A stretch of DNA of 64,000 nt, from positions 2,294,001 through 2,358,000 of the forward strand of contig NZ_LR880474.1 of NCBI RefSeq assembly GCF_904066215.1. The letters run 5' to 3'. Positions 12,357 to 15,990 of this stretch are shown in pieces; the first letter of the stretch is position 1, and each line of letters opens with the position of its first letter. The notes under the pieces were generated by a model that was not told the DNA's origin, did no database searches, and worked only from the letters and a program-made list of their open reading frames with translations. The translations under genes and the position numbers were made by a program. The DNA comes from Microbacterium sp. Nx66. GTDB lineage: Bacteria; Actinomycetota; Actinomycetes; Actinomycetales; Microbacteriaceae.

Positions 12357-13922
12357 TCACGCGGTCTCGACGAACTCCATCAGACGTTCGCCGCTGTGCT
12401 CGAAGATGCGTCCGCCGATCACAGCTCCTCCGATGAAGGCGACGATGCCGGTGGCGATGCCGACCCAGAAAGCCGCCGGCGCGAAGCCCGGATCGGCGAC
12501 GATGCTCGCACCGAACAGCCAGATGGTGGGCACGCTCAGGACGATCGCACCGAGGAACGCCGCCGCCGGGCCGTAGATCCCTCGGGAGGTCGGGCGCTGC
12601 GGCTGCTGGAACGGGCTGTCCCCGGGACGGGAGACCGCGTACGGCGCCACCACCGACACCACGCTGGAGATGCCGAGGGCGGAGAACAGCAGGCTCGCAC
12701 CGAGGCCGACGAGCGGGAGGAGAAGACTCCAGCGCCCGGCCAGCAGGAGCGAGAGCGGTACGGCGATCGCCAGCACCGGCACGGCGACCAGGAGCACCGG
12801 CACCAGGCGTCCGAGACGGTCCGGAACCCCGCGGACACCGCTCGCGACGTGCGTCCAGAGGGCCGTCGAGTCGTAGGCGACGTCATTGTGGGGCAGCCAT
12901 CCGAAGAAGAGGGCCATGACGGGCACGGGGACGAGGGCGGCGATCTCGACCGGCACGCCCGCGACGATCAGCGGGAACACCGTCAGCACGCCCGCCACGG
13001 GCACGACGATGATGTTCATGATGTACCGGCGGTCGCGCAGCCAGTACACGAGGCTTCGCGACGCGATGGCGCCGAAGGCGTTGGAGGGCAGCAGGCCGAA
13101 CCAGCCGAGTCCGCTGCGCTCGCGCGCCGCCACCGGACGCTCGGTCGTCGTCAGCAGGCGCCGTACGAACCAGGTCCAGGCGAACCACAGCAGCGCGAGG
13201 GTGACGGCAGCCACCAGTCCGCTTCCCCAGGCCGCGGCCGTCTCGCCTTCGGCCGCCGCGAACATCGCCGCCGGCGAGGCGGCGAGCGGCGTGAAGCCGA
13301 TCACCGAGGTCAGGGTCGCCAGTGACGCCGGCACCTCACCGTCCCAGCGGAGCGAGCCGAGGAACACGGCGACCGGGAACGCGATGACGATCAGGGCCAG
13401 GGCGAACAGCGCGGTGAGCTCCCGGGAACGACGCTCCGGGAGCAGGAGCGCATTGAGCGCCATCCCGACCCGGGAGAGGAGGATGGTCGACAGCAGCCCG
13501 ATCACCGCCAAGAGGACGGCCGGCACCCACGGCGCGCCGGCGCGGATCGCGACGACCGTCACGCTGATGTAGACCGCGAGGAGCGCGAGGCTCGGCACGC
13601 TGACCAGCGACGCGAGCGCCAGCACCCCTGGCATCTTCCGCTCGTCGACGCCGAACACCGCGAAGCGCCGCGGATCGAGCTGATCGACGGCTCCCACGAG
13701 CAGCGGCCCCACGAGGAAGCCGAGCAGAAGGGCAGCGCCACCGAGCACCGTCACGGCCTGGGAGACCGGCACCGGCGCGTCGCCGAGGCTGAAGACCGCC
13801 ACGCAGACCACCACGGTGACCGCGACGACCGCGCCGAAGGAGAGCAGGGTGCGCGCCCGGTGTTCCCCGCGCAGGGCGCCCAGGAGAAGCGCGAACCTCA
13901 GTCGGAGAACGTGTGCAGCCAC
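12357..13922 (-). CDS. ABC transporter permease (about 12 membrane segments)
   Basis: This 521-residue protein is almost entirely hydrophobic, with about 12 predicted helices in two halves, larger than a single ABC-2 permease domain. It has no ATPase motif. The GTG start at 13922 lies 25 bp inside the 3' end of the ATPase gene, so the two are translationally linked and form one exporter. Its substrate is unknown. The C-terminal region around residue 440 carries a short soluble segment (RPGDSPFQQPQRPTSRG). A start slightly downstream is possible, but the overlap would remain. Confidence 0.82.
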   Translation of the reverse strand: MAAHVLRLRFALLLGALRGEHRARTLLSFGAVVAVTVVVCVAVFSLGDAPVPVSQAVTVLGGAALLLGFLVGPLLVGAVDQLDPRRFAVFGVDERKMPGVLALASLVSVPSLALLAVYISVTVVAIRAGAPWVPAVLLAVIGLLSTILLSRVGMALNALLLPERRSRELTALFALALIVIAFPVAVFLGSLRWDGEVPASLATLTSVIGFTPLAASPAAMFAAAEGETAAAWGSGLVAAVTLALLWFAWTWFVRRLLTTTERPVAARERSGLGWFGLLPSNAFGAIASRSLVYWLRDRRYIMNIIVVPVAGVLTVFPLIVAGVPVEIAALVPVPVMALFFGWLPHNDVAYDSTALWTHVASGVRGVPDRLGRLVPVLLVAVPVLAIAVPLSLLLAGRWSLLLPLVGLGASLLFSALGISSVVSVVAPYAVSRPGDSPFQQPQRPTSRGIYGPAAAFLGAIVLSVPTIWLFGASIVADPGFAPAAFWVGIATGIVAFIGGAVIGGRIFEHSGERLMEFVETA

Positions 13923-15901
13923 TCGAGCCCCTCCACCTCTCCGCTGGAACCTGCGAGCTCCACGAAGCGCGATTCGAGCGTCTGTCCCGCGCGCACCTCG
14001 TCGATCGTGCCCTCGGCCAGCACCTCACCGTTGACGATGATGGCCACCCGGGAGCACACGCGCTCGACGAGATCCATCCCATGGCTCGACAGGATCACCG
14101 TGCCGCCGTGCGAGACGTAGGCGCGGAGGATGTCGAGGATCACGGCGGAGGAGACCGGATCGACGGATTCGAACGGTTCGTCGAGAACGAGGACGCGCGG
14201 AGAGTGGATCATCGCGCCGGCGAGCATGATCTTCTTCGTCATGCCCGCGGAATAGTCCGACACGACCCGGTTCAGGGCGTCGCCGAGGTCGAAGGCCCTG
14301 GCGAGGTCGCCGGTGCGCTTCTCGATGACGTCGGCGGAGAGCCCACGCAGCAGCCCGTAGTAATACAGCAGCTGTCGGCCGGTGAGCCGGTCGAAGGTGC
14401 GCAGCCGGTCGGGCAGGACGCCCATGACGCGCTTCGCCGCCAGGGGCTCGGCCGCCTGGTCGATGCCGCAGATGAGGACGCTGCCCTCGTCCGCGCGCAG
14501 GAGACCCGCGACGATCGAGAGGGTCGTGGTCTTGCCGGCGCCGTTGGGGCCGACGATGCCGTAGAAGGAGGCCGCGGGCACGGTGAGGTCGATGCCGTCG
14601 ACCGCGCGGTTCTCGCCGAACTGCTTCACGAGACCGCGGATGCGGATCGCCTCTGTGGCGGGCTCGGCTGCCGCCGAGTCATCGGCCTCGGTCGGGGGCT
14701 CCTCGGCGATCACCGCTTCGACGACCTCGACGGTCTCCTCCTCCGCGACGCGTCGGTCATCGGGCGCGGGCTCCTTGGTCACCGGCAGCGCGGTGTCCGA
14801 CACCTCCACCACGGACTCCGCCGCAGCAGGCTCCTCGACCGGCGTCGCTTCCTCGGCGGTGTCTCGGGCCGGTGTCGCCGTCTCGACGGACGAGGTGCTG
14901 GCCTCGTCCGTCTCGACGGTCTCTGCGGCCACGGTCTGCGCCTGCACCGCGCCGGACTCCTCCGGCTGCGTCTCGGCCGTGCTCACCTCTGCGGCTGCGG
15001 ACTCGACGGTCCCGACCTCAGCCGCCTGGGCCTCCGCGGCCTCGGCCTTCACGGCCTCGTCTTCGGCGGCCTTCGCTGCCTCATCTTCGGCGGCCTTCGC
15101 CGCAGCCGCCTTCGCCGCGGCTGCCTTCGCCGCAGCGGTCTTGGCGGCGGTGGTCTTGGCCGTCGTCTTGGCCGCCGAGGCCTTCGCGGCAGCGGTCTTC
15201 GCCGCGGCGGCCTTGGCCGCAGCCGTCTTGGCCGCAGCCGTCTTGGCCGCCGATGTGCTCGCCGCCTTCGTCGATGTCGCGGCCGGACGCTTCGAGCCGG
15301 TCGAGCGTGCGGCCGTGTTCTTCGCCGCAGCCGCGCGGGCGGCGGACGCCGTGCGAGCGCCTGCTGGAGCGGTCGCGGGATCGACACTCGCCGCGGGGGT
15401 GGGCTCGACCACGACCTCAGCCGTGGGCGCGGCCTTCTCGGCTGCCGCCTTGGTCGGTGCGGGCCTCGCCGTCCGCGCGGCGGTCGGCTTCTTCGCCGCG
15501 GCAGTCCTCGTCGAAGTGGAGGACTTCGCCGCGGTGGACTTCGCGGCCGTGGTCTTCGCGGCGGAGGGTGTGGCGGCCGTCGTCTTCGCAGCTGCCGACT
15601 TCGGAGCCGCGGTCTTCGCGGCCGTGGTCTTCGCCGCAGCAGACTTCGCCGCGGTGCTCTTCGCAGCCGTGGTCTTCGCAGCAGCAGACTTCGCCGCGGT
15701 GCTCTTCGCGGCCGCGGGCTTCTTCGCAGCCGGCTTGTCCGCTGCGGCCGTCTGCGCCTTGGCCGAGGCCGAGGTCGACTTCTTCGCGGCGGTGGACGCG
15801 GCAGGTCTCTTGGCGGCCGGTTTCCGAGCGGGCGCGGAGGCCTCGGTCGGAGTCTCGGCTCCCTCTGCCTGGGGGGTGGGGTCATCAGGGGAGGAAGTCA
15901 C
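13898..15901 (-). CDS. ABC transporter ATPase with a 416-residue histone-like and acidic N-terminal extension
   Basis: The product is 667 residues. Only the last 251 are an ABC ATPase: Walker A GPNGAGKTT (451-459), signature YSAGM (550-554), Walker B VLVLDEP (570-576) and the switch His in SSHGMD. Before it lie two Lys/Ala blocks (about 57-155 and 190-270) in which Lys recurs about every fifth residue, like histone H1 or the mycobacterial HupB tail, then an acidic Ala/Glu/Thr/Val-rich stretch (271-416). No internal Met occurs before the ABC domain. The GTG at 15901 is supported by a -10 TACCGT 6 nt upstream. It pairs with the overlapping permease gene. Ordinary exporter ATPases of this type are about 250-320 residues, so the extension is exceptional. 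Confidence 0.88.
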   Translation of the reverse strand: MTSSPDDPTPQAEGAETPTEASAPARKPAAKRPAASTAAKKSTSASAKAQTAAADKPAAKKPAAAKSTAAKSAAAKTTAAKSTAAKSAAAKTTAAKTAAPKSAAAKTTAATPSAAKTTAAKSTAAKSSTSTRTAAAKKPTAARTARPAPTKAAAEKAAPTAEVVVEPTPAASVDPATAPAGARTASAARAAAAKNTAARSTGSKRPAATSTKAASTSAAKTAAAKTAAAKAAAAKTAAAKASAAKTTAKTTAAKTAAAKAAAAKAAAAKAAEDEAAKAAEDEAVKAEAAEAQAAEVGTVESAAAEVSTAETQPEESGAVQAQTVAAETVETDEASTSSVETATPARDTAEEATPVEEPAAAESVVEVSDTALPVTKEPAPDDRRVAEEETVEVVEAVIAEEPPTEADDSAAAEPATEAIRIRGLVKQFGENRAVDGIDLTVPAASFYGIVGPNGAGKTTTLSIVAGLLRADEGSVLICGIDQAAEPLAAKRVMGVLPDRLRTFDRLTGRQLLYYYGLLRGLSADVIEKRTGDLARAFDLGDALNRVVSDYSAGMTKKIMLAGAMIHSPRVLVLDEPFESVDPVSSAVILDILRAYVSHGGTVILSSHGMDLVERVCSRVAIIVNGEVLAEGTIDEVRAGQTLESRFVELAGSSGEVEGLEWLHTFSD
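14654..15826 (-). repeat. Low-complexity coding repeat: Lys/Ala pentads then acidic linker
   Basis: The basic part (residues 26-270, about 15092-15826) contains many imperfect 15-bp units encoding variants of A-A-K-T/S-A; Lys falls at 66, 71, 76, 81, 86, 91, 96, 101, 106, then 116, 121, 126, and again at 220-269. The acidic part (14654-15091) is rich in Glu, Ala, Val and Thr. Such DNA can change copy number by slippage, so length may vary between strains. Confidence 0.85.
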
Positions 15902-15907
15902 CGTCCT

Positions 15908-15913
15908 ACGGTA
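15908..15913 (-). promoter_or_regulatory. -10 TACCGT for the ABC ATPase gene, predicted leaderless
   Basis: On the minus strand TACCGT is followed by 6 nt and the GTG at 15901. It supports the distal start that includes the histone-like extension. Confidence 0.5.
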
Positions 15914-15990
15914 TCAACGGGTGGCTGAGAGCCAAGGCCCCACGCGACATTCCGCAACCGGATCCCTCCCCGGCGCTTTCCGCAAGGGGG

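Follow-up and report, generated by a model that had tools for sequence, protein, structure and literature searches.

What is an arm of 416 residues doing in front of the ATPase of a bacterial exporter, and is it translated at all? The question is raised by a gene in a 64,000-nucleotide stretch of the Microbacterium sp. Nx66 genome (contig NZ_LR880474.1, positions 2,294,001 to 2,358,000; hereafter the window, in which coordinates are counted). Its open reading frame (ORF) runs on the minus strand from a GTG at 15901 to a stop codon at 13898-13900 and encodes 667 amino acids (aa). As an earlier note on this DNA had stated, 416 residues precede an ATP-binding cassette (ABC) ATPase domain, whose ABC_tran match lies at residues 435-577. 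This arm is almost certainly a translated, low-complexity sequence and, judging from the comparisons below, the full-length protein is very probably made. The same comparisons indicate that the start of the arm is fixed by a leaderless promoter conserved throughout the Microbacteriaceae, and that the sequence, length and charge of the arm evolve very fast.

Directly before the GTG lies an extended -10 element with a 6-nt spacer (TGATACCGT-AGGACG; 15902..15916, minus strand), which has the look of a leaderless start and confirms the -10 box that the earlier note had placed 6 nt from the distal GTG. The arrangement TGNTANNNT-N6-GTG occurs once in the window, where 0.15 occurrences are expected; the 19-base form of the promoter has one match in the genome at up to three mismatches, and so has its backward-read control. 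We searched 164 Microbacteriaceae loci, one per genome, for TGNTANNNT followed by 6 or 7 nt and an in-frame GTG or ATG, leaving aside duplicates of a locus, nine loci from other families and loci added later; seven of the 164 were truncated where the contig or the retrieved stretch stopped, so that 157 were usable. A single site was found in frame in 140 of them, at a spacing of 6 nt (124 loci) or 7 nt (16 loci), and the same regions held no off-frame and no antisense match. Seventeen loci lack a TGNTANNNT-type site, seven of which carry a plain TANNNT box 6-7 nt before an in-frame start. In the 140 loci, the -10 element is placed for a transcript that would begin at the start codon itself, as in leaderless actinobacterial genes. 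TANNNT boxes and many leaderless genes are described for Mycobacterium tuberculosis in the relevant passages of Cortes et al. (PMC3898074), according to which ATG and GTG are used similarly by leaderless and other genes.

The reading frame is also held within the arm. Among 17 related pairs (18 were tried and one, without an anchored start, was dropped), 168 indels fall in the arm, of which 145 have a length divisible by three; phase holds without a break in the closest pairs and less well where divergence is greater. The arm is close to the other window genes in codon use, GCT being commoner for alanine. These data bear directly on the alternative that the arm is untranslated and that the true start lies close to the ABC domain. 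This alternative would fit the scatter of gene starts among public records: a near-identical protein (P0002, 499 aa) starts at the codon of residue 164, P0022 (536 aa) starts at an internal codon further on, and for some near relatives the recorded length is 366-385 aa. It would also fit the GTG at residue 319, which has GGAGG upstream. However, it is at odds with the conserved leaderless start, for which no off-frame match exists, with the frame-keeping indels and with the codon use of the arm, and strong internal Shine-Dalgarno sites occur in just 20 of 55 genus loci, at differing positions. On the conserved in-frame start and the in-frame indels, we rejected an untranslated arm as extremely improbable. 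At least the P0002 and P0022 records begin at internal codons, probably because the leaderless GTG has no Shine-Dalgarno site. Across the public records of near relatives, lengths run from 366 to 671 aa (P0002, P0022, P0026 and P0067 included), which is partly real arm variation. An antisense gene over the arm was likewise rejected: long plus-strand ORFs are present, but the indel frame, the codon use and the conserved promoter all fit the minus frame.

The frame from the distal GTG, as first proposed in the earlier note, therefore holds in the 140 loci and the 145 indels; relatives across the Microbacteriaceae keep both the fusion and the frame, and homologues that begin at the ABC domain and lack any coding signal ahead of it, the outcome named there as fatal to the idea, were not what the loci and indels revealed. 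As to the absence of an internal methionine, also cited there in support, methionine does occur at residue 1 only, but the arm contains ten in-frame GTG codons (residues 164, 284, 306, 319, 324, 364, 365, 367, 374 and 397), including that at residue 319 with its GGAGG.

The arm has a marked charge layout (all parts on the minus strand). A first basic Lys/Ala block (residues 1-152; 15446..15901) has a net charge of +22; a short island with KAAAEKAAPTAEVVVEP follows (residues 153-183; 15353..15445; net -2), which alignment shows to be kept in close relatives; a second basic block (residues 184-270; 15092..15352; net +17), with a lysine period of 5, opens in the alignment with an RTAxAARxAAAKN motif; and an acidic segment (residues 271-416; 14654..15091; net -35) leads to the ABC domain. 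Residues 1-270 are 42% alanine, 16% threonine and 14% lysine (net +37), residues 271-416 are 22% glutamate and 6% aspartate, and the arm as a whole is nearly neutral (+2). Within residues 1-270, a spacing of exactly 5 accounts for 21 of 37 Lys-Lys intervals; shuffled sequences average 2.9, and none of 2000 shuffles attained 21. The earlier descriptions of a Lys/Ala-rich region with lysine often at every fifth position, and of a strongly acidic segment behind it, are accurate. Lysine and arginine make up 9.9% and 2.9% of the arm against 2.0% and 8.2% of the window's ORFs, a crude set in which not all are true genes. The 12 K[ATS]AA units of the arm have 11 distinct DNA forms, so that the repeat cannot be a single fresh expansion; tandem repeats of period 15 are also present, with 70-77% matches.

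How much of this layout is shared by other arms? We analysed the 147 arms with an anchored start (the 140 above and the seven with plain TANNNT). They measure from 6 to 693 aa (median 278), and 21 of them reach 400 aa or more. Of the genus arms, 54 measure 60 aa or more. In these the N-terminal half is the more positive without exception, and basic-then-acidic segregation is significant in 47 (p <= 0.01, 300 shuffles each); 19 of the 54 are net positive. In other genera, the N-terminal half is the more positive in 52 of 83 arms, and segregation is basic-first in 28 and acidic-first in 23 (one arm can show both). Net charge over the orthologous arms spans +31 to -86 and is often acidic outside the genus. 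On these counts, the basic-then-acidic layout is a feature of Microbacterium arms. Counted at the three codon positions, substitutions stand at 1556:1153:2042 in the arms as compared with 134:77:1149 in the ABC domains, which argues that the arm is weakly constrained.

Lysine-richness (at least 100 aa, with lysine at 6% or more and above arginine; 57 arms, against 90 others) follows the phylogeny of the ABC domain in part: it requires 16 changes on the ABC-domain tree as compared with a shuffled mean of 45 (none of 500 shuffles as low), and the clade of Nx66 is lysine-rich in 32 of 33 rows. Yet at least 7 gains or losses are forced by well-supported branches of what is a quick tree with long branches. 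As far as this tree goes, lysine-richness is clustered yet was gained or lost repeatedly, and with 16 changes, 7 of them forced, a single origin of lysine-rich arms was rejected. Short motifs were counted in 151 arms (the 147 and four cut ones) and in shuffled arms: [ED][ILVM]V[VI][EP]P, the motif of the island at residues 153-183, is present in 28, every one a Microbacterium arm (0.15 on average after shuffling), S..[DE]AA..F in 8 (0.33), L..FD.LI..L in 5 (0) and PP[LP]P.[LP] in 19 (4.06). In five loci (L137, L173, L182, L186 and L189), the arm is short and has the conserved amphipathic L..FD.LI..L near its start in place of charged repeats. Other motifs are specific to particular lineages, such as VRTDSLTAPR (L131, L140) and FRLxFSPI (L191, L198).

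Such rapid change could mean that the arm is largely neutral low-complexity sequence, produced by slippage and drift in a high-GC genome on a tolerated leaderless N-terminus, with frame, solubility and disorder as its only constraints. The range of lengths (6-693 aa) and charges, the weak third-position bias, the imperfect period-15 repeats (70-77% matches) and the at least 7 forced gains or losses of lysine-richness are all in line with this, and the frame would be held merely to reach the ABC domain. Drift of this kind is a serious rival to a modulatory arm, if an unlikely one, for it has to face lysine far above and arginine below the window level, a basic-acidic order in 54 of 54 genus arms, the clustering of lysine-richness on the tree, the conserved hydrophobic islands and the 21 of 147 arms that are at least 400 aa long.

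We tentatively favour a modulatory arm. The arm is apparently a long, disordered N-terminal extension on an exporter ATPase: in an AlphaFold2 model of the full ATPase, nearly all of residues 1-221 and 304-416 fall below a pLDDT of 50, and a helix is predicted at residues 222-303 (block pLDDT about 55-83) within an otherwise poor model. Hanging into the cytoplasm from the membrane-bound ATPase, it would modulate the exporter and not drive transport. Its means would be weak, multivalent electrostatic contacts, whether of one arm with another (clustering), with polyanions of the cytoplasm or with the anionic face of the membrane, aided by short docking motifs specific to each lineage. In this species, the near-exact charge balance of +37 and -35 suggests that the acidic segment and polyanions from outside the arm compete for the basic blocks. 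We think it plausible, if somewhat short of probable, that clustering or tethering through such charge contacts and docking motifs is how the arm acts on the exporter.

Several observations weigh against this proposal: (i), the AlphaFold2 model is poor even in the ABC domain (mean pLDDT 42.8; 13 sequences), so that its low confidence in the arm is weak evidence of disorder. (ii), the GTG at residue 319 could give a second, shorter product. (iii), the arm is shorter than 60 aa (6-57 aa) in 10 of 147 genomes, where a long arm must be dispensable; since some species nearly lack the arm, transport cannot in general depend on a long one. (iv), the sign and order of charge vary outside the genus, which fits drift too. 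And (v), the motif patterns were picked after the arms had been read.

The composition of the basic blocks raises another possibility, a widened form of the histone-H1/HupB-like tail put forward in the earlier note: the Lys/Ala blocks could bind nucleic acid under cover of the acidic segment and so tie the exporter to the nucleoid, RNA or ribosomes. In composition and lysine spacing, the arm does resemble the DNA-binding tails of HupB and TopA. The pertinent passages of a study of these tails report unstable DNA binding by HupB without its tail and say that the lysine repeats of TopA stabilise the enzyme-DNA complex (PMC5676037). These tails and HC2 are Lys/Ala-rich and of low complexity like the arm; the HupB and TopA tails described there, unlike the arm, are C-terminal on DNA-binding proteins (PMC5676037). 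The resemblance stops at composition, as the best Pfam family match of the arm, HC2 (PF07382), scores 19.9 bits with the whole protein and 22.7 with the arm against a cut-off of 40. The arm-bearing protein has no HU domain (PF00216) match at E <= 0.01, as a HupB-type protein would, and the Nx66 genome yielded a single HU protein, which lacks a basic tail. Membership in the chlamydial HC2 or in HupB was rejected on the low score and the tail-less HU protein.

A search with the arm alone, its scoring confined to the 7992 candidates that had the most words in common with the arm, returned 117 proteins at E <= 0.001: 100 with an ABC domain, 11 sigma factors, two with HC2 only and four others. Three primary sigma factors of other actinobacteria (P0242, P0250 and P0256) share the layout of Lys/Ala (KTTAAK) repeats, an acidic stretch and then a conserved domain, with basic/acidic charges of +30/-31, +27/-20 and +57/-19; they differ from the arm-bearing protein in that the domain attached is sigma-70 and not an ABC ATPase. 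The sigma frame of the Nx66 genome is just 429 aa. This shared layout favours a nucleic-acid tether, as do other Lys/Ala/Pro tails of the genome. Three such tails lie outside the arm gene (L301, L307 and L308; C1:2086833, 2748439 and 3143856), and judged by their sequences the carriers look like a trigger factor with a C-terminal tail, ribosomal protein L15 with an N-terminal one and a YtxH-like membrane protein tailed at its C-terminus. The DNA pattern of the lysine period, one mismatch allowed, has 20 matches in the genome, 17 in the arm and 3 elsewhere. Copying of the arm from another tailed gene of the genome was rejected, a separate search with the arm having returned only the arm itself and one weak match, a low-complexity stretch (E 0.288).

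A nucleic-acid tether is nonetheless hard to reconcile with orthologous arms as acidic as -86, with acidic-first segregation in 23 of 83 other-genus arms, with the HC2 score and with an arm that is neutral overall (+2), and we judge it distinctly unlikely. The acidic orthologues speak against DNA binding as a shared function and, together with the 10 of 147 arms below 60 aa, they leave the earlier proposal of a DNA-, RNA- or teichoic-acid-binding tail under an acidic cover unsupported as a general function. Within Microbacterium, where the basic-then-acidic layout is conserved, a nucleic-acid or polyanion tail is easier to accept. One may speculate, with considerable doubt, that the Microbacterium arm is a charge-balanced tether that links the exporter to the nucleoid, to RNA or to ribosomes, or else gathers exporters into condensate-like clusters, the acidic segment serving as an internal competitor, and that the family has repeatedly re-engineered arm length and charge from one fixed start.

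The machine that carries the arm is far more constant: the ATPase appears to be the nucleotide-binding subunit of an ABC-2-like exporter, one that is core to Microbacterium and its relatives. Its ABC domain (residues 417-667; 13898..14653, minus strand) matches PF00005 at 81.3 bits, well above the cut-off of 25 for an ABC ATP-binding domain, and the motifs GPNGAGKTT (Walker A), YSAGM (signature), VLVLDEP (Walker B) and SSH (H-loop) are intact and invariant among 13 aligned proteins. Among solved sequences, ABCA-type ATPase domains come nearest, followed by 1vpl, 4yer and Rv1218c. The partner is a membrane protein of 521 aa (12357..13922, minus strand), the start of which overlaps the end of the ATPase gene by 25 nt. 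It has no Pfam or NCBIfam match at E <= 0.01, no ABC-2 Pfam family even at a limit of E 5 (Far-17a_AIG1 alone appears, at E 0.097), and no match at E <= 1 in a sequence-profile search of the PDB; its C-terminal half bears some resemblance to ABC-2 membrane domains. The pattern (H/S)(N/G)DxxYD(S/N)(T/S)A in this partner picked out 373 relative-encoding stretches in GTDB contigs, the best 80 of which were kept.

The ABC domain is matched at E <= 1e-95 in 240 of 247 genus genomes (226 of the 226 good ones). In the family, 124 of 150 genomes have a match at E <= 1e-70, although outside the genus some of these may be an arm-less paralogue. Such a paralogue exists in the Nx66 genome; it is 55% identical, begins about at its ABC domain and has no arm. 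In 40 larger loci (31 of the genus, from 35 genus genomes, and nine from other families of the order), a permease relative adjoins the ATPase gene in every case (31/31 and 9/9). DUF3039 and PncB lie downstream in 31 of 31 genus loci and MurI is present in 29, one of the two exceptions being a stretch that ended; DUF3039 is found in two of the nine from other families. The additional genus loci L099-L121 were taken from the top-scoring ABC-domain matches, so that the genus sample leans to near relatives. An operon meaning was set aside for a neighbouring gene of 329 aa, which has no Pfam match at E <= 5.

Among the closest known systems are the ABC-2/DrrA-like exporters, for example the mycobacterial efflux pump with Rv1218c and its partner Rv1217c. 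The exporter described here differs from these in the long N-terminal arm of its ATPase, which scores below the cut-off of the DrrA subfamily model (TIGR01188; 195.8 against 312.45 bits), and in a permease without Pfam or NCBIfam family. For the arm there is a precedent in Rv1747 of M. tuberculosis, an actinobacterial ABC transporter for which the passages concerned report a disordered region and clustering (PMC9312465). Like the arm, whose disorder and cytoplasmic position are predicted, this region is cytoplasmic and N-terminal. As described there, Rv1747 has FHA domains joined by a disordered linker, whereas the arm-bearing ATPase has no FHA family match at E <= 0.01, and its permease and ATPase are encoded by separate genes, unlike those of Rv1747. 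Passages of a 2026 survey, which cite Rv1747, find the linker and flanking regions of ABC transporters more disordered than their domains; the arm-bearing ATPase family is not mentioned in those passages (PMC13257379). We found no published report of this arm in the open-licence literature.

A conserved exporter thus carries an arm of which the start site is common to the family and little else is shared. About 150 natural variants of length and charge, all mounted on one conserved machine, offer a ready test of what disordered arms do on ABC transporters. The public records further suggest that gene callers cut leaderless proteins at internal codons and that such arms are under-annotated.

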